Assembly (NCBI GenBank): GCA_015066625.1
Contig: SVOC01000004.1
Span: 1 to 64,000 of the forward strand
Direction: 5' to 3'
Origin: Oscillospiraceae bacterium
Lineage (GTDB): Bacteria > Bacillota > Clostridia > Oscillospirales > Acutalibacteraceae
DNA: 64,000 bases
Each line of letters begins with the position of its first letter. Positions within the stretch are counted from its first letter, which is position 1. This document shows positions 8,597 to 61,015 of the stretch, one piece after another. The notes under the pieces were generated by a model. It was not told the DNA's origin. It saw only the letters and a program-made list of their open reading frames with translations, and did no database searches. The translations under genes and the position numbers were made by a program.

Positions 8597-10219
8597 ATGG
8601 CTAAAACCCAAACCGGAATGACGGACAAACCCGCACTGGAAGATAAATTTAATATCCAAAAATACATAAACGGTCTTGCATCATTTATCAAAGACTGCGA
8701 AGTGCCTATGACAATTGCCGTTCAGGGTGACTGGGGCACAGGCAAAACAAGCATTATGGAAATGGTGAGAAAGGAACTCACGGGAGTTAAATGCGTGTGG
8801 TTCAATACATGGCAGTATTCTCAGTTCAATATGGGCGACCAGTTGCCGTTGATTCTCCTTTCATCGCTTCTTGAAAAGATTACCGAAGAATCAGGTCATA
8901 CTGATGCGAAAGAAACTGCAAAAAAAGCTCTTAAAACCATCTTCAAAATGGGTATGACAGTAGTCAGCAACGTCACAAACGGCGCAACAGAAGGTGTTGA
9001 AAATTGTTTGTTCAGTGATGGCGAGGAAGCAAGTCTTCCTGAATCCATCGGAAAATTGAAAGACAGTTTTCAGAATGCAATCAATGAGATTTGCAAAAAC
9101 AAAAATTTAGACCGAATTGTTGTGTTTGTTGATGACCTTGACCGTCTTAATCCGGGCAAAGCCGTTGAACTTCTCGAAGTGCTGAAGCTTTTCCTCGACT
9201 GTGACCGATGCGTGTTTGTTCTTGCAATTGACTACGGTGTTGTCAGCAGAGGTGTTTCGGAAAAATACGGTGACCTTATCGGCGAAGAAAAAGGCAAGAG
9301 CTTTTTTGACAAGATTATTCAGGTGCCGTTCAAAATGCCCGTTGCAAACTATGAAATCAAAAACTACATCAAAAACTGTCTTGAAAGCAGCAAAATGGAA
9401 GTGTCTGCTGATAAACTTGAAACTTACAGAGATCTTATCGGTCTTTCCGTGGGTTATAACCCCAGAGGAATGAAGCGACTTTTCAACGCATTCTCTCTTC
9501 TTCAGAAAATTTCGGGCGATGAAATAGCCGATGATGAACATAAAAAAGCTATTCTTTTTGCAATTCTTTGTCTGCAGCAGACCTGCGAAGAACTTTATAA
9601 TCATATCGTTTATAACAAAAACGAACTTGATGAAGCATTTCTGGAAACTCTGAAAAAAGAGGATGAATATCCCGAAATTTATGCAAGTATAAATATCCCA
9701 GAAGAAAAACATGAGTCTGTTGCGAATCTTATGGGCGCAGTTTATACAACAATCTGCAACAACGATGATATGCTTGATGCTTCAGATATCGAAAAACTCA
9801 AGTCGGTGCTTGAATCGTCAACCATAACATCAACAAGCGCCGCACCCGTCAGAAGAGGTGCCGTTGAATGCGATGTTGACGCCTTTGTTGAAGAACTTGA
9901 TTTGCCGTCAAAACCCTTGCTTAAAAAGGTTGTTGACTATTATAAAACCAAAGTTGCCGAAAGTCCCGATTACAAAATCACAGCGAGAAAAGGTAACGCT
10001 TCTCACGTTTCACTCAAATATCAGGGCCACCTTGTTTTTGATGCATACATCAATAAAACCAGCCTGAATATTGATATGTACGTTAAGGATGAACTCGTTG
10101 ATGATGATATCCGTTCAGGCAAATACGGTAACTTCCGTGGCAGACATTTCTGTTATTCCTTAAAACAGGACAAGATTGATGAGTTTAATTATCTGATTGA
10201 AAAATATATGAAGGAGTAA
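8597..10219 (+). CDS. KAP-family P-loop NTPase
   Basis: KAP NTPase of 540 residues. Walker A is GDWGTGKT at 44-51, the Walker B region is VFVDDLDRLNP at about 175-185, and FVLAIDY follows as sensor-like sequence. The KAP core spans about 15-330. Unlike classical KAP proteins it has no obvious pair of transmembrane helices inside the domain; the C-terminal 200 residues are soluble and of unknown fold. KAP NTPases are STAND-like ATPases often found in conflict systems. AAAGGAG precedes the ATG. The stop is one base before the next start, so the NTPase and the nuclease are almost certainly co-translated and probably form one complex. Family firm, defence role inferred. Confidence 0.85.
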   Translation: MAKTQTGMTDKPALEDKFNIQKYINGLASFIKDCEVPMTIAVQGDWGTGKTSIMEMVRKELTGVKCVWFNTWQYSQFNMGDQLPLILLSSLLEKITEESGHTDAKETAKKALKTIFKMGMTVVSNVTNGATEGVENCLFSDGEEASLPESIGKLKDSFQNAINEICKNKNLDRIVVFVDDLDRLNPGKAVELLEVLKLFLDCDRCVFVLAIDYGVVSRGVSEKYGDLIGEEKGKSFFDKIIQVPFKMPVANYEIKNYIKNCLESSKMEVSADKLETYRDLIGLSVGYNPRGMKRLFNAFSLLQKISGDEIADDEHKKAILFAILCLQQTCEELYNHIVYNKNELDEAFLETLKKEDEYPEIYASINIPEEKHESVANLMGAVYTTICNNDDMLDASDIEKLKSVLESSTITSTSAAPVRRGAVECDVDAFVEELDLPSKPLLKKVVDYYKTKVAESPDYKITARKGNASHVSLKYQGHLVFDAYINKTSLNIDMYVKDELVDDDIRSGKYGNFRGRHFCYSLKQDKIDEFNYLIEKYMKE

Positions 10220-10220
10220 A

Positions 10221-11120
10221 ATGGAACTCAACAAAATTTTAGACTATGCCATTATGGCAGACGAAACAGCAAAAAATCCCGTTATAAAATCAGGATATGT
10301 TACCAACGAAAAAACCTATAACAACTATCTTTACAACGATTCATTTGAGAAGTTTGTTGAAGATATGAAAACCAATCATCCCGTTGCCTATGAAATGTAC
10401 GGAAAGGGCGGCGGCAAAGAACTTGAAGAACGAAAAGTCGGCAAGAATATATATCCCCCGAAAATGGCTTCTTTCGGTTCGTCAAGCAGAATGATTTATA
10501 ACCTGATGAAGGATGTTGATGGCTTTCTTTTTGAAAAGAAACTGCCCACAACCGTCGGCGGTATCGCAAATCTTGATGGCTTTACGGAAACTGCAGATAA
10601 ATGCGTTTTCGTTGAAGCAAAATGCAGAGAGCCTTACACTTCCAAAGACGGCATCATCGAAAGAAAATATGAGGACTTATATAAAGTAATTACCGCTTCT
10701 GATAAAACTGACGTTGCTTGCAATATAAAAGTAATCGACGATCGAAAAATGAAAGTTATGTTTATGTCGGGCGATACAGAAATTCATTCGTTTGATATGA
10801 AACAGATGATAAGCCATCTGCTCGGAGTTGCAACAGCTTTTCTGAAAGACGAATTTGAACCCAAGAAAATTGATTTTATCTATCTGCTTTTCAACCCCAA
10901 GCTTATTGAAATCAAAGAAGGAAAATCAGAAATCCATCGCATTTACGAGCAGACCTGCAACGAATGCAATTCCGTAGATTTCAAAGCACTTTTTGAGGTT
11001 ATTGTTGATTATCTGCAATCAGTCAAGAGGCTCGGAAAAGACAAAAACAAGTCTGATATCACAAACAATTTCAGCTTCAGACTCTGTGACCAAAGCAATA
11101 TAAGAGGCCGTTTTGATTAA
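10221..11120 (+). CDS. PD-(D/E)XK-like nuclease partner of KAP
   Basis: A 299-residue protein with a candidate PD-(D/E)XK nuclease core: Glu105, Asp119 in NLDGF, then FVEAK with Glu132 and Lys134 on the next strand, spacing usual for the fold. Strands and helices continue to about 260. The N-terminal 90 residues are soluble and may contact the partner NTPase. Its ATG is one base from the KAP stop, a gene pair resembling ATPase-nuclease effector modules. The substrate (DNA or RNA, foreign or self) is unknown. The nuclease assignment rests on motif spacing alone and would need a profile search. Confidence 0.65.
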   Translation: MELNKILDYAIMADETAKNPVIKSGYVTNEKTYNNYLYNDSFEKFVEDMKTNHPVAYEMYGKGGGKELEERKVGKNIYPPKMASFGSSSRMIYNLMKDVDGFLFEKKLPTTVGGIANLDGFTETADKCVFVEAKCREPYTSKDGIIERKYEDLYKVITASDKTDVACNIKVIDDRKMKVMFMSGDTEIHSFDMKQMISHLLGVATAFLKDEFEPKKIDFIYLLFNPKLIEIKEGKSEIHRIYEQTCNECNSVDFKALFEVIVDYLQSVKRLGKDKNKSDITNNFSFRLCDQSNIRGRFD

Positions 11121-11133
11121 GTGAGGTGCTACT

Positions 11134-12189
11134 ATGCCACTGCAAATCATAAGACAAGATATAACCAAAATGAAGGTTGATGCGATTGTCAACACCACCA
11201 ACGAAGAAATGGTGGGTTACAGCGGAGTCGATCTTGCCGTGCATACCGCTGCAGGTCCGATGCTTGATGAGGAATGCCGTAAAATCAGACCGCTCGGTCT
11301 CGGCACTGCAAAGATTACGGGCGCATACAGCCTCGATGCGAAGTATGTTATTCATACGTCGGGTCCCGTATGGCACGGCGGACTTGTAGGCGAGAGTATC
11401 ATTCTCAAATCGTGCTACATAGAATCCCTGAAACTTGCAGTTGCAAACGGTTGCGAATCTGTTGCGTTTCCGCTTATTTCTGCAGGCGCTTACGGTTATC
11501 CGAAAGACCGGGTGCTCAAATTCGCAATTCAAGTTATCACAGAATTCCTTTTTGAACACGAACTTAATGTTTACCTCTGTGTTTATGACCGCAAATCCTA
11601 CGAATTCAGCAGAGTTATTTTCAATGAAATCAGCGAATTTATAGACGATGATTATGTTGAGGATTCAAAAGCTGATTTCAATGCGGATATTGAATTATTT
11701 GAATCAAGAGTTCTTCCTAACAGAATCAGACGGAGAGATAAACTCAAAGCCTCCGAGCCAAAGCTGTGCGCTTCAATGCCTGCACCGCAAACAGAAGAAT
11801 ATGGCAGTGCAAAGAATAAAACACTTCAGGAATATATGAAAGCAATGGATAAATCATTTGCATACAAGCTTTTTGACTTGATTGATTCAAAAGGAATGAC
11901 CGACGTTGAGTGCTACAAAAAAGCCAATGTTGACAAGAAAACGTTCTCCAAAATCAAGTGCAATCCCGATACATACAAGCCGTCAAAACAGACCGCAATT
12001 GCATTTGCAATCGCACTTGAACTGACCCTTGACGAAACCCAGGATTTACTTGCTTCCGCAGGACTGACGCTCTCCAGAAGTTTCACATTTGATAAGATAA
12101 TCAGATATTTCCTGCAAAAAGGTGTCTACGATATTTTTGAAATAAACGAAGCTCTGTTTGAATTTGACCAGGCGCTGTTGGGTTGCTGA
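11134..12189 (+). CDS. Macro domain fused to HTH-like C-terminal domain
   Basis: A 351-residue two-domain protein. Residues 1-175 are a macro domain (ADP-ribose binding): DAIVNTTNEE at 16-25, GYSGVDLAVH at 28-37, a GTAKIT strand, and FPLISAGAYGYP for the distal phosphate loop. The usual glycine-rich GGGGV loop is GYSGV, so binding or catalysis may differ. Residues about 225-351 form a helical module (YKLFDLIDSKGMTDVECY, then KTFSKIK and ALELTLDETQDLLASAG) resembling an XRE-like DNA-binding fold. It follows the nuclease by 13 bases with GAGGTG before the ATG. It likely senses or removes ADP-ribose or its derivatives and may couple that to transcription. An ADP-ribosylglycohydrolase lies two genes on. 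Confidence 0.8.
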   Translation: MPLQIIRQDITKMKVDAIVNTTNEEMVGYSGVDLAVHTAAGPMLDEECRKIRPLGLGTAKITGAYSLDAKYVIHTSGPVWHGGLVGESIILKSCYIESLKLAVANGCESVAFPLISAGAYGYPKDRVLKFAIQVITEFLFEHELNVYLCVYDRKSYEFSRVIFNEISEFIDDDYVEDSKADFNADIELFESRVLPNRIRRRDKLKASEPKLCASMPAPQTEEYGSAKNKTLQEYMKAMDKSFAYKLFDLIDSKGMTDVECYKKANVDKKTFSKIKCNPDTYKPSKQTAIAFAIALELTLDETQDLLASAGLTLSRSFTFDKIIRYFLQKGVYDIFEINEALFEFDQALLGC

Positions 12190-12215
12190 AAAACTGAAGT
12201 TGTAGAGGTGGTTAT

Positions 12216-12653
12216 ATGCCTTTGAATTTTAATATTGATGGAATAAATGTTTACTTGAAAATTAATAACTACAGACATTCAAATAAGGAAAACTGGGATT
12301 CACTCTGGTGCAACTGTGATTTTATGTTTAATTCCGGAGATTGGCTTAATTATCATAGAGAAAACGATGAAATATTTCTTTGCAGTGAAATTGAAGAATT
12401 AGAATCTGTTTTTACCATGTTGCTTAATGGTGAAATAAGCGAAGATAAAGAACTTTCATTCATTGAACCTGATTTTGTGTTCAATATTTATCCGATAAAA
12501 GATATTCAAAACTCGGTTTCTGATATTTTGATTGAGTGGAGAGTTTATTTTTGGCACGAGGGTTTAACTGATAATTATCTTTCCATAACTCTTGATCGAG
12601 ACGAGATAATAAAATTGAGAGATTATCTTTCGAGTATAATTAGAAAACGTTAA
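12216..12653 (+). CDS. WapI-like immunity protein (orphan)
   Basis: A 145-residue acidic protein. Its layout (WDSLWCNCDFMF early, SEIEELESVFTMLLNGE, FIEPDFVFNIYP, then a strand-rich end) resembles the WapI family of immunity proteins that neutralise polymorphic toxins. AGAGGTGG lies before the ATG, 26 bases after the macro gene. It is more AT-rich than its neighbours, consistent with recent acquisition. No toxin gene is present, so it would be an orphan immunity gene protecting against competitors. The family call is from overall pattern, not a database match. Confidence 0.55.
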   Translation: MPLNFNIDGINVYLKINNYRHSNKENWDSLWCNCDFMFNSGDWLNYHRENDEIFLCSEIEELESVFTMLLNGEISEDKELSFIEPDFVFNIYPIKDIQNSVSDILIEWRVYFWHEGLTDNYLSITLDRDEIIKLRDYLSSIIRKR

Positions 12654-12716
12654 ATCAATCAAGCAGATTAAAAGTCTCCCGTCGGGCGACCAATTGAATA
12701 ACTGAAATCGCTATAA

Positions 12717-12761
12717 TGTGGTTGTAAGGTTGAGAAACCAAGCAACCACATTTTTATTTTT
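12717..12761 (+). terminator. Terminator / leader hairpin before ARH gene
   Basis: TGTGGTTG pairs with CAACCACA, with an inner GGTT/AACC pairing, followed by a T-rich tract. The tract abuts the TGGAGGA ribosome site of the next gene, so the hairpin ends upstream transcription and may also regulate what follows. Confidence 0.75.
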
Positions 12762-12774
12762 GGAGGACAAAACA

Positions 12775-13566
12775 ATGACAGGTGCAATTATCGGTGACGT
12801 TGTCGGCTCAAGATTTGAGTTCGACAATTACAAATCAAAGGATTTTGAAATGTTCCATACGGAATGCGATTTTACCGACGATTCGGTTATGACTCTCGCA
12901 ATCGCAAAGGCTCTCACTCAGCACGAATCAATAACAGATTACGAAGCATTTAAAATCGAGCTTGTTGAAATTATGCACGAAGTCGGCAGAAGATATCCTC
13001 AATGCGGTTACGGCGGAAGATTTCTTCTTTGGATGATGGAAAATCTGACGTATCCCTATAACAGCTACGGTAACGGCTCTGCGATGAGAGTTTCGCCCGT
13101 TGGCTGGTTTGCAAATTCGCTTTCAGAATGTGAAAAACTCGCAAAGGCAACTGCCGAAGTTACTCACAATCATCCCGAAGGAATCAAGGGTGCGGTATCA
13201 GTTGCAGGTGCGATTTATCTTGCAAGAACGGGTCACACAATGGATGAAATCAAAGAATATGTCAGCAAATTCTATACGATTGATTTCACTCTCGATGAAA
13301 TTCGTGACGACTACGATTTCTATGAGATTTGCCAGAAATCCGTGCCTCAGGCATTCGAAGCATTCTTTGAGTCAACAAGCTTTGAGGATGCAATCAGAAA
13401 TGCAATTTCCATCGGCGGTGACAGCGACACAATTGCCGCAATCGCAGGTTCAATTGCCGAAGCATATTACGGCGTAAACGAGGATATGAAAGAAACGGCA
13501 CTCTCATATCTCGATGAATATCTTCTTGAAATTGCCGAAAACTTTATTGAAAAATTTATGAAATAA
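12775..13566 (+). CDS. ADP-ribosylglycohydrolase
   Basis: ARH/DraG-family hydrolase of 263 residues that removes ADP-ribose from modified proteins, nucleic acids or small molecules. Diagnostic features: GAIIGDVVGSRFE at 3-15, the metal-binding Thr34-Asp35-Asp36 in FTDDSV, and the second metal site GGDSDT at 214-219. Length and order of motifs are typical. The ATG at 12775 follows TGGAGGA. It is 12 bases from the vWA gene and downstream of the macro-domain gene, giving two ADP-ribose-handling proteins in the same cluster. No ADP-ribosyltransferase is visible nearby, so the modified target is unknown. Confidence 0.9.
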   Translation: MTGAIIGDVVGSRFEFDNYKSKDFEMFHTECDFTDDSVMTLAIAKALTQHESITDYEAFKIELVEIMHEVGRRYPQCGYGGRFLLWMMENLTYPYNSYGNGSAMRVSPVGWFANSLSECEKLAKATAEVTHNHPEGIKGAVSVAGAIYLARTGHTMDEIKEYVSKFYTIDFTLDEIRDDYDFYEICQKSVPQAFEAFFESTSFEDAIRNAISIGGDSDTIAAIAGSIAEAYYGVNEDMKETALSYLDEYLLEIAENFIEKFMK

Positions 13567-13578
13567 GGAGACAGAACA

Positions 13579-14232
13579 ATGAAAAACAACATCACAGAAC
13601 TCGTATTTATCCTTGACAGAAGCGGCTCGATGGCAGGACTTGAGAGCGACACAATCGGCGGATTCAACGCTATGATTGAAAAACAGAAAAAGCAGGACGG
13701 CGAATGCTATGTTTCAACTGTTCTTTTCGATAATGAATCCGAAGTGCTTCATGACAGAGTGAAGCTTTCTGAAATTAAGCCCATGACAGACAGAGATTAC
13801 ACAGTCAGAGGATGCACTGCACTCATCGATGCCATCGGCGGTGCGATTCACCACATCGGAAACGTTCATAAGTATACCCGGCCCGAAGACGTGCCCGAGC
13901 ACACAATGTTCATCATCACAACAGACGGCATGGAAAATGCAAGCCGCCGTTATTCGAGCGATAAGGTAAAGGCGATGATTGAAAGACAGAAAGAAAAATA
14001 CGGCTGGGAATTCCTTTTCATCGGTGCGAATATTGATGCAGTTGAAACCGCCGCAAGATACGGTATCGGCGCAGACAGAGCCGTAAACTACAATGCCGAT
14101 AAAGAAGGCACAAGCATCGTTTATGAATCTGTTGCAAAAGCCGTCTGCAACGTGCGCGCAAGTGCTCCTCTCTCTGCAGACTGGAGCGATGAAATCAACG
14201 CAGACTACAAACGTAGGGGCAAAAAACAGTAA
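13579..14232 (+). CDS. vWA-domain protein (TerY-like)
   Basis: A 217-residue cytosolic von Willebrand factor A domain. The MIDAS motif DRSGSM (13-18) is intact; the Thr of RGCTALIDA (about 80) and the Asp of TTDGMEN (about 115) complete it. It has no signal peptide or membrane segment. It resembles small TerY-like vWA proteins found with ADP-ribose-processing genes in stress systems. It is 12 bases from the ARH gene with AAGGAGAC before the ATG, so they are one transcript ending at the following terminator. Likely a scaffold for a metal-dependent complex; the partner is unknown. Confidence 0.82.
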   Translation: MKNNITELVFILDRSGSMAGLESDTIGGFNAMIEKQKKQDGECYVSTVLFDNESEVLHDRVKLSEIKPMTDRDYTVRGCTALIDAIGGAIHHIGNVHKYTRPEDVPEHTMFIITTDGMENASRRYSSDKVKAMIERQKEKYGWEFLFIGANIDAVETAARYGIGADRAVNYNADKEGTSIVYESVAKAVCNVRASAPLSADWSDEINADYKRRGKKQ

Positions 14233-52985: not shown

Positions 52986-53057
52986 CTGTATTTCATTCTT
53001 GTTTTGTTTGTGTTATACTGCCAATACTTTAAAATAATTTCTGAAAGGAAAATAACT

Positions 53058-54554
53058 ATGATTACACCTCAGATTGCGGCATTTATCGTTTATTTTGCAG
53101 CAGTTCTCGGCATCGGTCTTGTGTTCTTCTTCAAATCAAAGGGCACAGGCGAGAAAGACTACTTCCTCGGCGGACGTTCAATGGGTCCCTGGGTAACGGC
53201 ACTCAGCGCTCAGGCTTCCGATATGAGCGGCTGGCTCCTCATGGGCTTCCCCGGCAGCATCCTCGCTTTCGGTATGGGTCAGGTATGGATCGGTATCGGC
53301 CTTGCTCTCGGCACTGCTGCTAACTGGATTTTCGTTGCCAGAAGACTCCGTAAGTTTTCACAGGCAGCCAACGACTCAATTACTGTTCCTCAGTATCTTT
53401 CAAACCGTTTTCTGACAAAGAACCCTGCTTTGCAGATTATCTGTGCAGTGGTTTTCCTTGTTTTCTTCACAATCTATGTTGCATCAAGCTTTGTTGCAGG
53501 TCAGAAGGTTTTCATTCAGGTTGTTCCCCAGCTTGAAAGCAACCCCAACCTTGCACTGCTTATCTTTGCGGCAATTATCATTGTTTACACCTTCCTCGGC
53601 GGCTTCAAGGCTGTTTGCTGGACAGACTTTTTCCAGGGTCTTATGATGCTTGCTGCACTTCTTGCAGTTCCCATCGTTCTCGTTATTGCAAAGGATCTCG
53701 ACTACAGCGTATTCCAGGCTGTTGACGGCGGTGTAAGCCCCATGAATCCCTTCTCCGCAAGCTGGAAGGATATTGCCTCGGGTCTTGCATGGGGTCTCGG
53801 TTATTTCGGTATGCCCCACATCATCGTAAGATTTATGTCAACAAAGAACTCAAAGGTTCTCAAAAAGTCAGCAACAATCGGTATCATCTGGGTTGTTCTT
53901 TCACTTGGCGCAGCAATTGCAATGGCACTCCTCGGCAGAGGTTACGCTCCCACACAGGCACTTGTTGACGGCGGTCAGCAGGAGCTTGTATTCGTTACAC
54001 TTGTTCAGGATATTTTCAGCGGTCCCTGGGCATTTGTTGCAGGTCTCCTTCTTTCTGCAATTGTTGCTGCTGCAATGAGCACTGCGGACTCACAGCTTCT
54101 TGTTGCATCATCATCATTCACCAGCGATATCTACAAGCCCATTTTCAGAAAGAATGCTTCCGATAAGGAAACCCTTTGGGTAGGCAGAATAGTTGTTCTC
54201 ATCATTGCCGTTATTGCTTATTTCATTGCAAGCAGCAAGAGCGAAGGCGCGGCAACCATTATGACCCTTGTTGATAACGCCTGGGGCGGCTTCGGTTCAG
54301 CCTTCGGTCCTGTAATTATCCTTTCACTTTTCTGGAAGAGATTTACATATAAGGGCGCAATTGCAGGCGTTGTCGGCGGTGCAGTTGTTGATGTGCTTTG
54401 GATGAATCTTCTTGCAGACACAGGCATTTATGAGCTTCTTCCCGGCTTCATTGCAGGTTTTGTATGTGCAGTGGTTGTTTCACTTATCGATAAGAAGCCT
54501 TCAAAGGAAATTGAGGAGCTTTATGAAAAGGCAATCAGTGCCGAAATCGAATAA
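53058..54554 (+). CDS. putP: Sodium/proline symporter
   Basis: SSS-family transporter of 498 residues with about 13 transmembrane helices. PutP features: FFKSKGTGEKDYFLGGRSMGP, the helix SAQASDMSGWLLMGFPG, and MSTADSQLLVASSSFTSD in TM8. Imports proline with Na+. The ATG at 53058 has AAAGGAAA upstream. It is monocistronic and closed by a strong terminator. Its codon use is more biased to GC-ending codons than neighbours, suggesting high expression. Confidence 0.92.
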   Translation: MITPQIAAFIVYFAAVLGIGLVFFFKSKGTGEKDYFLGGRSMGPWVTALSAQASDMSGWLLMGFPGSILAFGMGQVWIGIGLALGTAANWIFVARRLRKFSQAANDSITVPQYLSNRFLTKNPALQIICAVVFLVFFTIYVASSFVAGQKVFIQVVPQLESNPNLALLIFAAIIIVYTFLGGFKAVCWTDFFQGLMMLAALLAVPIVLVIAKDLDYSVFQAVDGGVSPMNPFSASWKDIASGLAWGLGYFGMPHIIVRFMSTKNSKVLKKSATIGIIWVVLSLGAAIAMALLGRGYAPTQALVDGGQQELVFVTLVQDIFSGPWAFVAGLLLSAIVAAAMSTADSQLLVASSSFTSDIYKPIFRKNASDKETLWVGRIVVLIIAVIAYFIASSKSEGAATIMTLVDNAWGGFGSAFGPVIILSLFWKRFTYKGAIAGVVGGAVVDVLWMNLLADTGIYELLPGFIAGFVCAVVVSLIDKKPSKEIEELYEKAISAEIE

Positions 54555-54609: not shown

Positions 54610-55596
54610 TTAATACTGTTCAAGGCATTCACGGGCAAGATTTTTAAAATCCTCAATAACACTCTGCGGTGAAATTATTTTTATATCGGCACCGAAATTC
54701 ATAAGCCAGGTAAGAAAAACGGGGCTTACCGCAACCTTTACGGTGATATCAAAATGCTCGCAGTCGGCAACGGACATTATTGTTTCCGCACCGAAACGGT
54801 CAACGATGATGTTGGCAAGCTTATTTTTGCATCTGAGCTTAACGGTTTCTTCTCTGCCGCCGAACATTCCGAAGGTTTTCTTTGAATAGATTGCCATATC
54901 AAAATCTTCAAAGTATTCCCTGCCTTCTCTTTCGTCTTCCGCAACAGAGATTTTCAGCATTTTGTCAACACGGTAATGCTTGATTTTGCCTGCCGCCGAA
55001 TCGTAGGCAATAAGGTAATAATTTTCATCATCCCAGGTCAGCGCCCAGGGGCTTACGCAGTAAAGAGCACCGCCGTGACGGAGAATTTTTTCTTTTTTGG
55101 GACTCCACTCAAAATACTGAAAGGTGATTTTGCGGTTAAGTGTAATGGCGGTGTGGATTTTATCAACGGTCAGGTAAATGCTTTCGTTCATTGTCTTTAT
55201 TCTGTTTGCAACAAAAACCTGACGGTGAAGACCGTGTGCCTCGTGAATGCTTGCAAAGCCTTCAATTTTCTTGATAAGCTCGTCGCTCTTTTTTCTTGTT
55301 ATGAACTTTGAGGACTGAACGGCATCAACAAGAAGCTTAAGCTCAGGCATTTCAAAATCACGGCTTACAACTCTGTAATCCGTATTTCTGCCGTTGCGGG
55401 TCTGAATGATATCAAGCCCGTAGAAACGCAGAGCTTCAATATCATCATAAATGCTTTTGCGCTCCGCACCCACATCGTAAGCGTTGAGGTTTTCGATAAT
55501 CTGTGCGGTTGTCAGACCGTGCTCCTCATCGGTTTTTTCAAGCATGATTTTCATGAGGTAGAGAAGCTTCAGTTTCTGATTTGACGACTTTGCCAT
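54610..55596 (-). CDS. WYL-domain transcriptional regulator
   Basis: YafY/DeoR-like regulator of 328 residues. The N-terminal HTH_11 spans about 8-70 (LKLLYLMKIMLEKTDEEHGL, then ERKSIYDDIEALRFYGLDI). The WYL domain (about 145-225) contains VSPWALTWDDENYYLIAYD, where WAL replaces WYL. A WCX-like C-terminal part runs to 328. WYL proteins often control DNA-damage or phage-related genes. It lies next to the phage-derived cassette but is on its own transcript. Confidence 0.88.
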   Translation of the reverse strand: MAKSSNQKLKLLYLMKIMLEKTDEEHGLTTAQIIENLNAYDVGAERKSIYDDIEALRFYGLDIIQTRNGRNTDYRVVSRDFEMPELKLLVDAVQSSKFITRKKSDELIKKIEGFASIHEAHGLHRQVFVANRIKTMNESIYLTVDKIHTAITLNRKITFQYFEWSPKKEKILRHGGALYCVSPWALTWDDENYYLIAYDSAAGKIKHYRVDKMLKISVAEDEREGREYFEDFDMAIYSKKTFGMFGGREETVKLRCKNKLANIIVDRFGAETIMSVADCEHFDITVKVAVSPVFLTWLMNFGADIKIISPQSVIEDFKNLARECLEQY

Positions 55597-55665: not shown

Positions 55666-56361
55666 TCAGGCACAGGCTTCGGGTCTGAAAAGCGTACCCT
55701 TTTTGAGAAGTGCAAGCATGGCAATATTCTGCTTTGCGGTGCCGATATATTCTTCTATTCCGTTGGCGGCGGCAATTCTTTTGCGGTATGCAAAGCCGCT
55801 GTTTTCTCCCAGGGATTTCAGGGCATCCACAATGGATGTTTCGTTTTTTCCGCATTTGGCAAAACAGCGCAGGCTTTCGGGATATTTTATCCAGGGACAC
55901 TTGCCCCAGTTTTCCCAGGGTCTTTCTTCAAGCCTTGTTTCCACAACACCGTAGTGAAAGCCCCTTGCTTCAATAACCTTGCCGTCACCGCAGTAAATAC
56001 CCACGTGACCGGGCATAAAAACAAGAATTCCGGGGATTTCCGGCATAGTATACATTCTGCCTCTTTGCTTGCATTTTTTCAGCATTGAGTTTGCGGAAAC
56101 ATCCTGAGAAGCATTATACACGGGTACGGAATTCACGCTGTCGCTCCACAGAAAGCCTTTGATAAGACCCACGCAGTCGTGAACTCTGAAACCAAGCTGT
56201 TCATTATATCTTTCCATTCTTTCGCGCTGATAATGCTGAGGATACTGCTGAGTTTTTCTTTCAAGCAAATCCTTTGTTGCCTTATTTCCGAAGGTGCCGT
56301 ACCAATAAGGCTTGCCAAGCTGTGCTTTTGCGTATTCAACAAGCTCCGTGTTTGTTTTCAA
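55666..56361 (-). CDS. Phage-type endolysin (NlpC/P60-like) with cell-wall-binding tail
   Basis: A 231-residue cell-wall hydrolase without signal peptide. The catalytic domain (1-160) has Cys in VHDCVGLIKGFLW (about 58) and His in MPGHVGIYCGDGKVIEARG (about 118), a Cys-His NlpC/P60 or CHAP-like amidase/peptidase. The tail (about 172-231: IVDALKSLGENSGFAYRKRIAAANG) resembles the C-terminal wall-binding repeat of clostridial phage lysins. The start overlaps the holin stop by 4 bases. It is last in a five-gene cassette. Confidence 0.85.
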   Translation of the reverse strand: MKTNTELVEYAKAQLGKPYWYGTFGNKATKDLLERKTQQYPQHYQRERMERYNEQLGFRVHDCVGLIKGFLWSDSVNSVPVYNASQDVSANSMLKKCKQRGRMYTMPEIPGILVFMPGHVGIYCGDGKVIEARGFHYGVVETRLEERPWENWGKCPWIKYPESLRCFAKCGKNETSIVDALKSLGENSGFAYRKRIAAANGIEEYIGTAKQNIAMLALLKKGTLFRPEACA

Positions 56362-56585
56362 GCGGCGGCACCCCCCGACGTGATGTTTGTCACTTCAAGC
56401 ATTGTATTCCACACCGCACTTATACCTGCGGCGGTGCCTGCAATGAGCATTGAAATACCGATACGCTTGAAGGTATCAAAATCCGTTACACCCAGAAGTG
56501 TATCCACGGAAACCGCCGAAAGAAATGCCTGCACAAAGGTTTTCAGCGCTCTGATAACTATGTCTTTTATAATTGTTCTGTTCAT
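56358..56585 (-). CDS. Holin
   Basis: A 75-residue membrane protein with two hydrophobic stretches (about 13-30 and 42-62) typical of small class II holins: IVIRALKTFVQAFLSAVSVD, then ISMLIAGTAAGISAVWNTML. It would form pores to release the endolysin. A GGAGGA site lies upstream. It overlaps the lysin and is one base from the XhlA-like gene. Confidence 0.82.
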   Translation of the reverse strand: MNRTIIKDIVIRALKTFVQAFLSAVSVDTLLGVTDFDTFKRIGISMLIAGTAAGISAVWNTMLEVTNITSGGAAA

Positions 56586-56586
56586 C

Positions 56587-56853
56587 TCATCCTCCTGTAA
56601 AATATGTTGCTGCGGCGCTTACAGCCGCGCCCAGCAAAGCAAAAACAACCTTGTCCCACATGGCGGCAGGTCTTGTTTTAAGCCCTTCAACCGCCGCTTT
56701 AAGCTCACCCACAAGGGCAAGCAGATTGTTCAGCGTGGTTGTAACTGCAACAAGGTTTTTATCCACACCGTTGTATTTTGCGTAAAGCTCATTGATGTTT
56801 TCTTCCGCTTTGTCAAGACGGTGTTCAATTTCCGTAAGACTGATTTCAGGCAT
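56587..56853 (-). CDS. XhlA-like holin accessory protein
   Basis: An 88-residue protein: coiled-coil N-terminal half (LTEIEHRLDKAEENINELYA) and a C-terminal transmembrane helix (about 68-86, WDKVVFALLGAAVSAAATYF). This is the layout of XhlA/haemolysin accessory proteins that work with holins. It overlaps the baseplate-like gene by one base (ATG/TGA style). Confidence 0.8.
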   Translation of the reverse strand: MPEISLTEIEHRLDKAEENINELYAKYNGVDKNLVAVTTTLNNLLALVGELKAAVEGLKTRPAAMWDKVVFALLGAAVSAAATYFTGG

Positions 56854-57758
56854 TACTCTGCCTCCGTATTTTCAAAATACGTTATCCTTACGGAATACCA
56901 ATCCCAGTCGTCAACGATTTTTTTCCAGATTGAATCCCCGTATCCGAATATACAGAAGCCTGCAAAAAAACATATTCCGAAGGGAGACATATATGCTTCA
57001 TCCGTCATTTTCAGTACGGGTAAAAACGAATTTTCGGCATAAAGTGAATCAAAGCTTATGTATTCACCGTCTTCACTGAATTTTATTTCAATTTTATCAA
57101 TTTTTGTTCCCTCGGGAAGTTCTGATACGGGTTCAAGAAAATATCCGAATATCTGCATGCTGTTGTACTGATTTTCACCGCTTATAAAGGAATATCCGTA
57201 TTCGGAATAAAAGTTAATTATGTTTGTGCTGTTGAAAAATTCGGCAGTCCTGATATTTCTGCCGGTTTTGACGGGTTCGCCGCCATAGGTAAGTCTTCCG
57301 CCTGACTCACCCAGATTATCAAGCACAGAGGTGTTTTCGTGGCTGTGCCTTGAAAGTATGTTAAGATTTATCTGCGAAACAAGACCGCCGTTTTCACTGT
57401 CGTAATCCGTTTCATCTCCTCCTGCAGAAGGCAGAAGTCTGAGAAGGGCAACCGGACTTTTTACAACAAGAGAGCCTTTGCCGTCATAGGCTTCAAGCTG
57501 TACGCTGAGGGTGTGACCCTGAGTAAGCTGTGCACAGACGGGTACGGTTATCTCTTTTGCCTTGGGCTGAAAATCCGTGCGGATAATTCTGCCTTCGGTA
57601 ACAAAAGCCGCAACATAGCTTGTGATTTCATCACAGGATGCCATTTCCTCCGTGGGGGATATGGCAAGGTGAGTGGCGTTATGTTCACCCATTCTGCCGA
57701 TTAATTCACCGTCGGGCAGCATGTTTTCTGCATTAAAATCGATTTTGACTGTTCTCAT
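56853..57758 (-). CDS. Phage baseplate upper / receptor-binding-like protein
   Basis: A 301-residue protein resembling BppU-type tail proteins. Residues 1-125 form the conserved N-terminal beta domain (KIDFNAENMLPDGELIGRMG, then ITSYVAAFVTEGRIIRTD and TVPVCAQLTQGHTLSVQLEA). The middle has NLNILSRHSHENTSVLDNL and GGRLTYGGEPV, a trimerisation-like motif seen in tail fibres. A variable C-terminal domain follows. The ATG at 57758 follows AAGGAGGA. No other tail gene is present, so it may have been kept for binding to cells or wall. Confidence 0.75.
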   Translation of the reverse strand: MRTVKIDFNAENMLPDGELIGRMGEHNATHLAISPTEEMASCDEITSYVAAFVTEGRIIRTDFQPKAKEITVPVCAQLTQGHTLSVQLEAYDGKGSLVVKSPVALLRLLPSAGGDETDYDSENGGLVSQINLNILSRHSHENTSVLDNLGESGGRLTYGGEPVKTGRNIRTAEFFNSTNIINFYSEYGYSFISGENQYNSMQIFGYFLEPVSELPEGTKIDKIEIKFSEDGEYISFDSLYAENSFLPVLKMTDEAYMSPFGICFFAGFCIFGYGDSIWKKIVDDWDWYSVRITYFENTEAE

Positions 57759-58012
57759 TCTTCCTCCTTGAAATCTTCTGTTGCTTCGGGCGGCAGCATT
57801 GTGTCGCACCAGAGTTTTGCCTGAAAAAGAAAATCAAGCAACATGGAAAGTTTGGTTTTTACCGACTGATATTCGTTGAGAATTTCGGTAATACGGGGCG
57901 TGCGTGTTGCATAGACAGCGGAGATATCCGAGCCTATGATTCTTGCATATTCAAGCTGCTGGCTCAGCTCTGATAAGGGGATTCGCAGCCCCTCACAACA
58001 ATTTTTCGGCAT
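57755..58012 (-). CDS. Small phage-type protein, unknown
   Basis: An 85-residue soluble, mostly helical protein. N-terminal CCEGLRIPLSELSQQLEYAR and C-terminal KLSMLLDFLFQAKLWCDTML look like coiled segments; two close cysteines open it. It overlaps the baseplate gene by 4 bases. The ATG at 58012 follows AAAGGAGG. First gene of the cassette and nearest to the controlled promoter. Function unknown. Confidence 0.65.
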   Translation of the reverse strand: MPKNCCEGLRIPLSELSQQLEYARIIGSDISAVYATRTPRITEILNEYQSVKTKLSMLLDFLFQAKLWCDTMLPPEATEDFKEEE

Positions 58013-58035
58013 TGAATTGCCTCCTTTCAATAAAT

Positions 58036-58051
58036 GTTACGATATCGACAC
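58036..58051. promoter_or_regulatory. Operator-like site 1
   Basis: GTTACG-ATAT-CGACAC matches the palindrome GTGTCG-CTAT-CGACAC at 58153 in 13 of 16 bases. It lies within the transcribed leader of the cassette. Confidence 0.45.
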
Positions 58052-58152
58052 ATACGTATGTAAATAATAATGGCGATAAAATTTATCACCATTAAGATCG
58101 CGGGAAGTCAAAGGGGTTTTATACTTTGCTCATCGATTTTTATTGTCTACCC

Positions 58153-58168
58153 GTGTCGCTATCGACAC
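58153..58168. promoter_or_regulatory. Operator-like site 2, perfect palindrome
   Basis: GTGTCG-CTAT-CGACAC, six-base perfect arms. It covers the predicted transcription start of the cassette promoter (-10 at 58174). Confidence 0.6.
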
Positions 58169-58173
58169 TATCT

Positions 58174-58202
58174 ATATTAACGGCAAAATTTGTCGTTGTC
58201 AA
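58174..58202 (-). promoter_or_regulatory. SigA promoter of lysis cassette
   Basis: On the minus strand TTGACA, 17-base spacer, TAATAT. It is flanked and overlapped by operator-like sites 2 and 3, the layout of a repressed phage promoter. The 150-base leader contains a 21-bp inverted repeat at 58071-58091. Confidence 0.72.
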
Positions 58203-58205
58203 CAC
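58190..58205. promoter_or_regulatory. Operator-like site 3
   Basis: TTGTCG-TTGT-CAACAC matches site 2 in 12 of 16 bases and overlaps the -35 box (58197-58202) of the cassette promoter. Confidence 0.5.
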
Positions 58206-58231
58206 TTTTTTTAAAAATTTTCAGAAAAATG

Positions 58232-58260
58232 TTGCTTTTACGAAACATTTATGTTATTGT
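58232..58260 (+). promoter_or_regulatory. Promoter of XRE repressor gene
   Basis: TTGCTT, 17-base spacer, TATTGT, 46 bases before the ATG at 58306 and divergent from the cassette promoter. Confidence 0.55.
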
Positions 58261-58305
58261 ATCTTTGCGACTTTGCAAATCTTTTTAAGGTATACGGTGA
58301 TTGAA

Positions 58306-58659
58306 ATGACAGGAGAAAAAATAAGGGAATTAAGAAAAAAAGCAGGTCTGACCCAGACTCAGCTTTCGGAAAAACTCAATGCGGAATACGGACTCAACAC
58401 AGACAGAGTTATGGTAAGCAAATGGGAAACGGGCTTTCAGACTCCCGTTGTATCCACACTTTCCTGCATAGCCAAGCTTTTCGGCGTTTCGCTGGATTAT
58501 ATAAACGGCACGCAGACAGGTGAAAACGATAATATTAAAGCAGCCAAGGTTGCTCTTTTTTCGGGTGCAGGGGAAGTGACCGACGAAATGTGGCAGGAGG
58601 TTGTGAATTTTGCAAAATACATTCAGGCAAGGGAGGCGGCAAAAAACGAAAACAACTGA
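58306..58659 (+). CDS. XRE repressor of the lysis cassette
   Basis: A 117-residue phage-type repressor. HTH domain (1-68): GEKIRELRKKAGLTQTQLSE, then VSKWETGFQTPVVSTLSCIA and GVSLDYINGTQ. A short C-terminal helix (75-117) may dimerise it. The ATG at 58306 has GGTGAT six bases upstream; a GTG at 58297 with AAGG is an alternative. It overlaps the ImmA-like frame. Placed divergently to the cassette with operator-like palindromes between, it is the obvious regulator. Confidence 0.85.
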   Translation: MTGEKIRELRKKAGLTQTQLSEKLNAEYGLNTDRVMVSKWETGFQTPVVSTLSCIAKLFGVSLDYINGTQTGENDNIKAAKVALFSGAGEVTDEMWQEVVNFAKYIQAREAAKNENN

Positions 58660-59065
58660 GCTCTATGAAATAGCACAAAACAGCGGCACTGAAATCATCT
58701 GCTGCGATTTGCCGCAGACCCGTTCCGTTTCGGCAATGTCCTGCACGGGGGAATGTTATATAGGTATGGATCCTTTTCAGATTGAAACAACCGCAGAGGA
58801 AAGGGTGCATCTTGCACACGAGCTGGGGCACTGCGAAACGGGTTCGTTTTACAGTGCATATTCACCTCTGAATGTAAGAGGCAGGCAGGAGTGCCGTGCA
58901 GACAGATGGGCGGCGTCAAAGCTTGTGCCTCCCCTTGAACTGAAAAAGGCACTGAGCATGGGCATTACTTGTCTTTGGGAACTGGCGGAATACTTTGATG
59001 TTACTGAAGAATTTATAGAAAAGGTAATGCGTATTTACTGCGAAAAAAATATTTTGCATTTATAA
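58646..59065 (+). CDS. ImmA/IrrE-type metalloprotease
   Basis: M78-family zinc protease of about 139 residues; the active site HELGH (HLAHELGHCE) is intact, and ECRADRWA further on supplies the downstream Glu helix. Such proteins cleave a partner XRE repressor after DNA damage to release phage genes. The protein reads well from KTTELYEIAQNSG, but no ATG, GTG or TTG lies there: the best-placed codon is ACG at 58646, 9 bases after GGGAGG. The nearest standard alternative is TTG at 58610, inside the repressor gene, with no clear site. It may be weakly translated or a split of an ancestral repressor-protease fusion. Confidence 0.75.
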   Translation, partial: TKTTELYEIAQNSGTEIICCDLPQTRSVSAMSCTGECYIGMDPFQIETTAEERVHLAHELGHCETGSFYSAYSPLNVRGRQECRADRWAASKLVPPLELKKALSMGITCLWELAEYFDVTEEFIEKVMRIYCEKNILHL

Positions 59066-59113
59066 TAGTTGTATGTTATTATTTCTTTATAATCTATGAA
59101 AGGTCTGATTGAA

Positions 59114-61015
59114 ATGAAAAAAATCCTTTCGTTAATCCTTGCTCTTGCCGTGGTAATCGCTTCGTGCACAATGTTTGCATCGGCTTCGGGCGACCTTGAC
59201 CCTGACGATATTTCGGAATATCCCGTAATAATCGTGCCCGGCTATTCGGCTTCATCTCTCCGCCTTGAATCCGGCGAAGTGATATGGGGTCTTGACTGGG
59301 ATGAGGTTCTGGACCGTGTCCTTAACAGAATAATTGACCTGGGTATGGGTCTGGGTGCTCTTACCGTTGGCAACGCTGAAATTCTTGCCGCTACTCTGGG
59401 TGAAGAAATTTGCGAGCTTTTCGAGGAGATGCGATGCAATCCCGACGGCTCAAGCGTTTATCCCGTTGAAAGAGTTGTTTCAACCGCAGAAGAAACCTGC
59501 AGTGCAAACCTCAGGGTTACCTTCCCCAACGGCGATAACAGACACGAGCAGGATATGGCGGCTGAAATCGAAAAGTATGTCGATGACGATTACATTTTCA
59601 ACTTCACCTGTGATTTCAGAATGGGCTCCGAGTCTTGTGCAACCCAGCTTGACGAGCTTATTCAGGATGTCAAAAAATATACAGGCAAAGATAAGGTGAA
59701 TATCCTTGCCGTCAGCCACGGCGGTCAGGTAACCGCTACATATCTTGCCCTTTTCGGCTGGAAAAACGATGTTGACAATGTTGTAATGACCGTACCTGCC
59801 ATCGGCGGTGCGGGAATTGCTTATGACCTTATGTCACAGACCCTTGAATTTGACGAAGAATGTCTTATCAGATTCATTGAGCACGGTATGCGCTGGGAAG
59901 AAGATTATAACTGGCTTCTCAAAGCACAGCAGCTTGGATTCCTTGATGCGGTGCTCAATTCCCTTGTTCCCCATATTATGCCTGCTCTCGGCTATTGGGG
60001 CAGTCTGTGGGACTTTATTCCCGTTGAAAAATATGAAGCCACAAAAGCTCTTCTTCTTGACAGCACGGAAAGTGCGGCGCTTATTGCGAAGAGCGACCGT
60101 TTTCACTATGAAATCTTCCCCACAATGGGTGAAAAAATGGCGGAGTGCATTGCAAACGGTGCCAATATCTCCATTATTTCAGGTACGGGCAACAGAATTG
60201 TAACGGGTCTTAAAGAAACCTCGGATGCCATTATTACCACAACCGCATCAACCGGTGCAAAAACAGCACCCTACGGTCAGAGATTTGCCGACGGCTATGT
60301 GCAGGTCAATCCTTGCGGCGGCAAAAACAAGGTTTCTCCCGATATGACAATCGACGCTTCAACCGCATATATGCCCGACAACACCTGGTTTGTAAACGGA
60401 CTTTTCCACGGTATGACCTTCTGGGATTATTACAGCAGAGAGCTTATGATGACTCTGCTTCTTACCGATAACATTACCGATGTTTATTCGGACCCCGACT
60501 TCCCTCAGTTCAAGGATACAACAAACCCCTCTTCGGCGGTTTACGCAAGCTTTGAAGGCTGTGAAGCAGGCGAAATAAACGGCGATACAAAGCATCTTAT
60601 AATCACAAACTGCTGCTGGGAAAACGATGTAAGCCTTTCCGCAATTTACTGTGACGGTATTGACCTGAGCGTCAAAATCAACCCCTTCAAAAAGCTTGCT
60701 CCCGGTGAGAGCATTGCTCTTGATTTTAAAGGCGAAATTCCGGAGGTAAGCGGTGCGGCGGCAAGCATTACCGTTTACTACACCATGGCAACAATTACAC
60801 CCGTAGGTTACAGAACACAGTATTTTACCATCAACAACGGCGATCCTGTTTCTTCATCCGACGGACTTGTTGACCTGACCCCCCACTCACCTCTTGATTC
60901 AATCCCCGGCGGAGAAGTGATTATGAACCTTCTGGACACTCTGGGGCTGAGAGAGCTTGTAACAATGTTCTTCAACATAATCTTCTATTGGATTAACACA
61001 ATTTTTGCAATCTGA
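59114..61015 (+). CDS. Secreted lipase/LCAT-like alpha/beta hydrolase
   Basis: A 633-residue exported protein with signal peptide (1-25, FASAS). The alpha/beta hydrolase domain (about 35-420) begins with EYPVIIVPGYSAS, the oxyanion strand of LCAT-like lipases. The nucleophile Ser is in ILAVSHGGQV, a variant of GxSxG. A later RFADGYVQVNP and FVNGLFHGMTF region likely supplies His. The C-terminal 150 residues include an Ig-like beta domain and end in a hydrophobic helix. The ATG at 59114 has AAAGG upstream; ATG 59096 lacks a site. Substrate unknown. Confidence 0.75.
   Translation: MKKILSLILALAVVIASCTMFASASGDLDPDDISEYPVIIVPGYSASSLRLESGEVIWGLDWDEVLDRVLNRIIDLGMGLGALTVGNAEILAATLGEEICELFEEMRCNPDGSSVYPVERVVSTAEETCSANLRVTFPNGDNRHEQDMAAEIEKYVDDDYIFNFTCDFRMGSESCATQLDELIQDVKKYTGKDKVNILAVSHGGQVTATYLALFGWKNDVDNVVMTVPAIGGAGIAYDLMSQTLEFDEECLIRFIEHGMRWEEDYNWLLKAQQLGFLDAVLNSLVPHIMPALGYWGSLWDFIPVEKYEATKALLLDSTESAALIAKSDRFHYEIFPTMGEKMAECIANGANISIISGTGNRIVTGLKETSDAIITTTASTGAKTAPYGQRFADGYVQVNPCGGKNKVSPDMTIDASTAYMPDNTWFVNGLFHGMTFWDYYSRELMMTLLLTDNITDVYSDPDFPQFKDTTNPSSAVYASFEGCEAGEINGDTKHLIITNCCWENDVSLSAIYCDGIDLSVKINPFKKLAPGESIALDFKGEIPEVSGAAASITVYYTMATITPVGYRTQYFTINNGDPVSSSDGLVDLTPHSPLDSIPGGEVIMNLLDTLGLRELVTMFFNIIFYWINTIFAI

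Follow-up and report, generated by a model that had tools for sequence, protein, structure and literature searches.

The closest described counterpart of the element reported here is FpGTA, a gene transfer agent (GTA) of Faecalibacterium (Borodovich et al. 2026; PMC12946183). According to the passages of that paper drawn on here, operon I of FpGTA encodes TerS, TerL, portal, scaffold, and capsid, and an unlinked operon II encodes baseplate, fibre, a putative receptor-binding protein (RBP), holin, and endolysin; the structural proteins of operon II were detected with 40-nm particles holding about 9 kb of DNA (PMC12946183). In F. prausnitzii CP030777, the paper places operon I at 2536737-2546346 and operon II at 2672270-2677176, and F. 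prausnitzii ATCC 27766 is the strain for which particle production has been published. The words "repressor," "LexA," "ImmA," and "promoter" are all absent from the main text of the paper. Here we describe a cassette at positions 55666 to 59065 of a 64,000-nt stretch of DNA (the window; GenBank assembly GCA_015066625.1, contig SVOC01000004.1, positions 1 to 64,000) from an Oscillospiraceae bacterium of the family Acutalibacteraceae, in which genes for a fibre-like protein and for cell lysis face a repressor gene and a protease gene. We favor, with moderate confidence, the interpretation that this cassette serves as locus II, for fibre and lysis, of a GTA-like element that has two parts and a short tail and is controlled by an exchangeable switch of the DNA-damage type; it probably releases virus-like particles, the shell of which is encoded at another place in the chromosome. 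The genome of the window is referred to as G000, and other genomes and regions carry G and L labels.

As far as gene content alone can be compared with the published passages on FpGTA, the cassette and a second operon of G000, on contig C16, resemble it in consisting of two unlinked loci with the same division of labor. The genome contains a head operon with genes for TerS, TerL, portal, and capsid and, apart from it, an operon that by its composition corresponds to a fibre/RBP, holin, and endolysin operon, the assignment of the fibre being weak. In both systems locus II is patchier than locus I (reported in 5 of 12 strains for FpGTA and found in 12 of 45 genomes of the genus here), and both belong to gut Clostridia. 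Unlike FpGTA, the present system belongs to another genus, with relatives from the ruminant gut. A dedicated XRE-ImmA or LexA-box switch is found on its fibre and lysis locus, whereas no such regulator is named for FpGTA in the main text cited above. Among the titles and abstracts searched, none described a switch of this kind at a GTA lysis locus that is unlinked.

PBSX of Bacillus subtilis (xhlA-xhlB-xlyA) has the gene order fibre, XhlA, holin, lysin, is SOS inducible, and packages host DNA. It is encoded in a single contiguous cluster and has a long contractile tail, whereas here the head and lysis loci lie apart and tail genes were found at neither. The GTAs of Alphaproteobacteria, RcGTA and CcGTA, are vertically inherited and have some of their genes outside the main cluster; they are controlled by other regulators (GafA and CtrA) and form siphovirus-like particles. 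In the ImmR-ImmA system of ICEBs1, the gene for an XRE repressor adjoins that for an ImmA-type metalloprotease and is divergent from the controlled operon; unlike in ICEBs1, the switch here faces the lysis and fibre genes of an integrase-free locus rather than excision or conjugation genes.

An earlier note on this DNA, made from the letters alone, had proposed five minus-strand genes facing an XRE repressor and an ImmA-type protease. The open reading frames (ORFs) and the Pfam and PHROG families bear this out, and xre-immA is divergent from the five-gene operon. The features of the cassette are as follows.

55666-56361, minus strand: endolysin (lysin), with an NlpC/P60 catalytic domain (Pfam NlpC_P60, E 1.7e-4, slightly short of the Pfam cut-off) and a C-terminal domain of phage-lysin type (phrog_2307 of PHROGs, on residues 171-222).
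56358-56585, minus strand: holin (Phage_r1t_holin, E 1.1e-4, under the Pfam cut-off; phrog_443 holin, E 2.4e-5).
56587-56853, minus strand: XhlA-like (hemolysin-type) protein (phrog_937, E 4.9e-8; Pfam XhlA, E 0.079).
56853-57758, minus strand: fibre-like protein, with an N-terminal beta domain and a fast-evolving C-terminal part.
57755-58012, minus strand: p85, an 85-amino-acid protein, first gene of the operon, seen in these cassettes alone.
58035-58052: second operator-like site, near the operon start.
58153-58168: perfect palindrome GTGTCG-N4-CGACAC, the presumed XRE operator, directly downstream of the -10 element.
58174-58202, minus strand: operon promoter TTGACA-N17-TAATAT, of a form common to all 12 cassettes.
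58227-58250: second inverted repeat, AAATGTT-N10-AACATTT, on the xre side.
58306-58659, plus strand: XRE-family repressor (HTH_3, E 3.6e-11).
58610-59065, plus strand: ImmA/IrrE-type metalloprotease with HELGH (Peptidase_M78, E 4.4e-6; phrog_87 metallo-protease, E 1.3e-25).

The labels given earlier to the XhlA-like protein, holin, and endolysin are thus retained. Four-base gene overlaps had also been claimed and are present at two of the four operon junctions (57755-57758 and 56358-56361), whereas at the other two the genes overlap by 1 nt (56853) or are 1 nt apart (56586). The HExxH motif is found in all nine ImmA homologues. In G036 the anchored frame of immA has a stop at codon 5, 65 codons ahead of HExxH; this stop may lie upstream of the true start, and the reading of that gene as broken was withdrawn. 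The first ORF picker used prefers antisense ORFs in some loci, and a strand-aware version and tblastn were also applied.

The five-gene order is kept in 12 species of the genus, a recurrence beyond coincidence, and lysin homologues were found in 21 of 60 relatives. Four cassettes, including that of the window, lie between the symporter/WYL genes and the lipase gene (site 1; G000, G020, G036, and G061), four next to a phosphoesterase gene (site 2; G011, G002, G022, and G062), two next to a GH4 gene, on different sides of it (site 3; G008 and G023), and two next to a Na/H-exchanger gene (site 4; G027 and G017). In G008 site 1 is empty, the symporter and lipase ORFs lying 524 nt apart without a cassette. 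No head or tail reference matched any of the 12 cassette regions, and a relic of a phage adjoining the window was rejected. The 28 proteins adjoining the cassettes belong to host families wherever they could be named, and no replication or integration gene of either locus was seen by eye or among the matches listed (up to 25 families) for 35 nearest-neighbor proteins.

Between the window and G020, the ratio of nonsynonymous to synonymous divergence (dN/dS) is 0.016-0.181 for all seven genes, reflecting purifying selection, and dS is 0.25-0.76 in the cassette and 0.47-0.54 in three flanking genes (the rows for symporter versus L028 and immA versus L029 were excluded, being judged frame mismatches). 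Purifying selection and flank-like dS together place the cassette where it is now since the split of the two species. None of the lysins of the 12 carriers has an internal stop. Overall, the cassette is inherited and has moved about within a group of gut bacteria, and the suggestion of the earlier note that it is domesticated rather than decaying is supported by its distribution, by the selection on it, and by its flank-like divergence. Lysins of the same family without p85 or fibre are present in other species of the genus (L039:9543-10518, L040:9597-10289, L037:9526-10233, and L038:9700-10407); as read from the neighboring genes, those of G024 and G025 adjoin an ileS-like gene (G024 also has a holin-like ORF), and those of G001 and G015 a polygalacturonase-like gene. 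Isolated cassettes were also considered in six faecal "phage" records matched by the lysin and were rejected, since by reading four of the hits resemble pieces of conjugative elements and the other two belong to different phages.

All 12 cassettes share the promoter form TTGACA-N17-TAnnAT, and they differ in what accompanies it. In each of the nine cassettes with xre-immA, a perfect TGTCG-N4-CGACA palindrome follows the -10 element, and an imperfect related site lies near the start of p85. The core of the second inverted repeat is present in all nine and in none of the three of LexA type. These three, which lack xre-immA (G023, G027, and G017), instead have a perfect SOS/LexA box, CGAAC-N4-GTTCG, in the promoter region. 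Random assignment of the two states to 12 cassettes would produce this split of nine and three with a probability of 1/220, a figure that is no test because the species are related. A LexA box at the promoter is thus found in 3 of the 12 cassettes and in region L071; the window's own cassette is without it. Genome-wide, perfect SOS boxes number two each in G017, G027, and G023 and three in G425, as against 3 to 10 occurrences of a reversed control pattern. The second box of G023 precedes a Y-family polymerase gene by 23 nt, and that of G017 precedes a 66-amino-acid ORF and lies 256 nt from YolD/Y-family polymerase genes; the other box of G027 lies within an ORF. G425, which belongs to another genus of the same family and also has the head operon, has an isolated cassette of a sigma-like gene and genes for an 80-amino-acid protein, a fibre, two ORFs, an M23 peptidase, a phrog_1863 protein, and a holin, with a perfect SOS box 10 nt ahead of the first ORF; of its other boxes, one precedes a DUF4417 gene by 23 nt and the other falls inside an ORF. 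The cassette of G008 (L034:8475-8900) is mixed, having xre-immA and the operator together with XhlA and holin genes that resemble those of the LexA-type cassettes, and has a two-mismatch SOS-like motif between -35 and -10.

From the common promoter form, combined with either the XRE palindrome or the SOS box, one module seems to be under two switches of the DNA-damage type that can replace each other. The pairing of an XRE repressor with an adjacent HExxH protease is an architecture of the ImmR-ImmA type; the earlier note had likewise seen a repressor-protease switch of the cassette's own, to which the operator palindrome and the LexA-box version without xre-immA can now be added. By analogy with these families in Bacillus, LexA would bind at the SOS boxes, and ImmA would inactivate the XRE repressor after damage. 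Control of other G000 genes by this XRE protein was considered and rejected: TGTCG-N4-CGACA occurs at just two other places, with different cores, and a reversed-pattern control is equally frequent (3 against 5).

According to the earlier note, no capsid or packaging gene accompanies the cassette. This holds locally, as the nine head-operon references match nothing anywhere in the window, but "capsid-less" is true only in that local sense, because G000 and all 12 carriers have a conserved capsid and packaging operon elsewhere.

L175:4007-10760 (G000:C16): head operon of G000, on a contig different from that of the window; PHROGs and Pfam identify TerS, TerL, portal, and capsid.

Its genes encode TerS, TerL, portal, a protease-like protein, a 111-amino-acid protein, capsid, and proteins of 121, 110, and 280 amino acids. 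By tblastn all nine are present in 19 of the 20 regions fetched, with all 12 carriers among the 19, and the 20th (L188) stops at a contig end without the last two genes. Internal stops are absent from TerL, portal, and capsid in the 12 carriers, and these genes are likewise under purifying selection (dN/dS 0.029-0.135). Both loci have been vertically inherited for a long time. An MgtE-type gene adjoins the operon in 16 of the 20 regions, in none of which did either of two tail-like reference ORFs find a match. Downstream (3') of the operon there are host-like or unmatched ORFs in the window's genus, in G425, and in G253, and probable tail genes in several further genera, some belonging to this family (by homology to ORFs judged tail-like by reading).

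Such head operons followed by probable tail genes in other genera of the order are seen in L308-L323, L235, L247, and L289. The last of these ends with XhlA-like, 378-amino-acid, and holin-like ORFs; that is, lysis genes are sometimes still attached. Of the 394 genomes sampled across the order, 71 match the capsid protein, 69 of them once; it is also matched in 285 IMG/VR stretches (of which 80 were kept) and in 11 records of the GenBank phage collection, five of them faecal scaffolds at 54-66% identity and the others below 25%. The head operon is also present in GenBank scaffolds titled "Bacteriophage sp." and derived from human faeces in Mexico (L195, which is MT835508.1, L196, and L197); in MT835508 its surroundings are, by reading, a long stretch of bacterial chromosome with a cluster of ribosomal-protein genes. 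These three scaffolds may be packaged host DNA or mislabelled chromosome. Their derivation from the virus-like particle study PMC8361208 was not adopted, as the passages of that paper drawn on here do not name the accessions.

A BppU-like character of the fibre-like protein is suggested by weak PHROG matches and by the setting of distant homologues of its N-terminal domain, which lie in apparent phage tail clusters of relatives (L072 and L073). Its AlphaFold model has a mean predicted local distance difference test score (pLDDT) of 74, with blocks of 76-95 across residues 1-110, and an H-x-H-x-N stretch is conserved. Compared with G020, dN/dS is 0.098 for residues 1-170 and 0.264 for residues 171-301, and compared with G061 it is 0.234 for the N-terminal and 0.535 for the C-terminal part, so that the C-terminal part evolves two to three times faster (against G036, the C-terminal value is saturated). 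The protein has no match among known phages. For p85, 12 of the 45 genus genomes have a match, with one weak second match in G027, and there is none in 50,697 phage records; none of 27 candidate IMG/VR stretches was confirmed. A GTDB scan for p85 returned 10 contigs, from the same genomes as 10 of the 12 carriers, 9 of them titled as ruminant-gut samples (buffalo, deer, goat, and sheep).

A terminase search matched 42 of the 45 genomes at E <= 1e-3, 34 of these at E < 1e-30, and a strong TerL match is found in 12 of 12 cassette carriers versus 22 of 33 noncarriers (Fisher p 0.019, ignoring kinship). Similarly, among the 37 genus genomes searched for the lysin, 14 of 14 with the lysin group have a strong TerL match versus 15 of 23 without it (p 0.013, again ignoring kinship). 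Genomes that differ more in lysin and fibre also differ more in capsid, TerL, and portal (correlation of pairwise distances, r 0.60-0.88; Mantel, at most 4 of 5000). In the mechanism that we propose, the terminase, portal, protease-like protein, and capsid of locus I would package host DNA. DNA damage would open the switch at locus II, through RecA-triggered cleavage of LexA in some species and through ImmA-type proteolysis of the XRE repressor in that of the window. The p85, fibre, XhlA-like, holin, and endolysin genes would then be expressed from one strong promoter; the fibre would decorate a short-tailed particle, and the holin/XhlA/lysin set would open the cell and free the particles. In this proposal the cassette would be SOS induced, the two loci would work jointly, and DNA would be transferred.

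Several observations count against this interpretation. There is no perfect LexA box anywhere in G000, and because of this the link to DNA damage in the window's species comes from the ImmA family only. The head operon has a wider distribution than the cassette, as 22 of the 34 genomes with a strong TerL match lack p85, such matches being confirmed as this operon only within the 20 fetched regions. In the 1 kb upstream of TerL, none of the 20 regions has an SOS box at one mismatch or less or an XRE operator (motifs with two mismatches occur in five of the 20, at scattered positions), and SOS or XRE control shared with the cassette was thus not found there. The distances of lysin and fibre correlate with a host gene's as well (r 0.68 and 0.78; Mantel, 0 of 5000), so that the correlations show co-inheritance and not interaction, vertical inheritance predicting the same. 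Pfam BppU is unmatched in the window's fibre protein and in all 13 proteins of alignment A4; the BppU-like label of the earlier note was dropped for this reason in favor of "fibre-like." An isolated pair of collagen-like fibre and amidase genes between chromosomal genes (L070:9713-12234) belongs to G230, a genome outside the 71 with a capsid match. On a separate point, that of a prophage nearby, 2 of the 35 neighbor proteins scanned match a "major tail protein" PHROG and 1 of the 35 an Ig-domain PHROG; these tail-protein matches probably arise via shared Ig-like domains. Apart from them the scanned neighbors are host families, and the complete prophage beyond this gene order in close relatives that would have undone the earlier note's proposal was not seen.

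The main rival is a stand-alone SOS suicide or lysis module, by which damaged cells would burst and release DNA, vesicles, or public goods, the fibre being a leftover or a surface binder and the head operon unrelated. It draws on the presence at the lysis cassette of the SOS-box or XRE-ImmA switch, which was not found at the head operon, on the lysins of G024 and G025 that stand next to an ileS-like gene without p85 or fibre, and on the precedent of explosive lysis in Pseudomonas aeruginosa, as described in the passages of PMC4834629 drawn on here. However, a fibre-like protein and p85 are maintained by purifying selection ahead of the lysis genes, and all 12 carriers retain the head operon with uninterrupted TerL, portal, and capsid genes, and we regard this explanation as unlikely. 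Holin-dependent export, resembling type 10 secretion, of the fibre-like protein as an adhesin or contact-dependent effector would fit a cargo-like gene with a fast-evolving C-terminal half that precedes holin and lysin in one operon, and lysis cassettes of type 10 secretion systems are known (passages of PMC10847048). Against it, proteins distantly related to the N-terminal domain lie in apparent phage tail clusters, and no toxin domain is found among the PHROG and Pfam matches listed for the protein; export of this kind appears improbable.

That the cassette is a decaying prophage remnant with no present function is disfavored and highly improbable: its parts do belong to phage-type families, but the same order is kept in 12 species with the low dN/dS values given above for seven genes, the 12 lysins are uninterrupted, and the promoter is conserved. 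The earlier note had further considered the relic of a tail-like particle. PhageMin_Tail was found in 4 of 45 genomes, just one of them among the 12 carriers (other tape-measure and sheath families were not searched), which is why the relic of a long-tailed particle is disfavored and a tail-like particle encoded elsewhere in the carriers was rejected. A two-part, short-tailed GTA-like element is the interpretation that we prefer.

The cassette of the window is flanked by ordinary chromosomal genes, the nearest of which are the following.

53004-54554: symporter.
54610-55596: WYL regulator.
59096-61015: lipase-like protein.

Further neighbors in the window are an EamA-like transporter (by reading), a glycosyltransferase, an MntP-type pump, and a TetR regulator. 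Elsewhere in the window, positions 8597-14232 hold a cluster of genes for KAP-type P-loop ATPase-like, macro-domain-like, ADP-ribosylglycohydrolase-like, and VWA-like proteins (named by reading), possibly a defence or tellurite-type island.

A two-locus GTA is a kind of element known since 2026; what is new here is the host genus, the dedicated switch, and the exchange of LexA and XRE-ImmA on one promoter. In its fullest form, our proposal is of a Gram-positive two-locus GTA in which building and release are separately wired, the head operon apparently not being under SOS control and the fibre and lysis genes being gated by damage through an exchangeable LexA box or XRE-ImmA pair on one conserved promoter, so that damaged cells would finish, aim, and release DNA-carrying particles; this proposal is tentative, with the balance tipped slightly against it. 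GTA-like packaging in gut Clostridia has been reported without a named regulator, as far as the main text of PMC12946183 goes. If the proposal is true, the switch described here would be the control element of the release step and would provide a natural swap between LexA and XRE-ImmA on the same promoter, and the gene set would predict which relatives release particles upon DNA damage. The question of what turns on Gram-positive GTAs would become directly testable, and lysis cassettes without a capsid gene would need to be interpreted jointly with capsid operons at other places in the genome.

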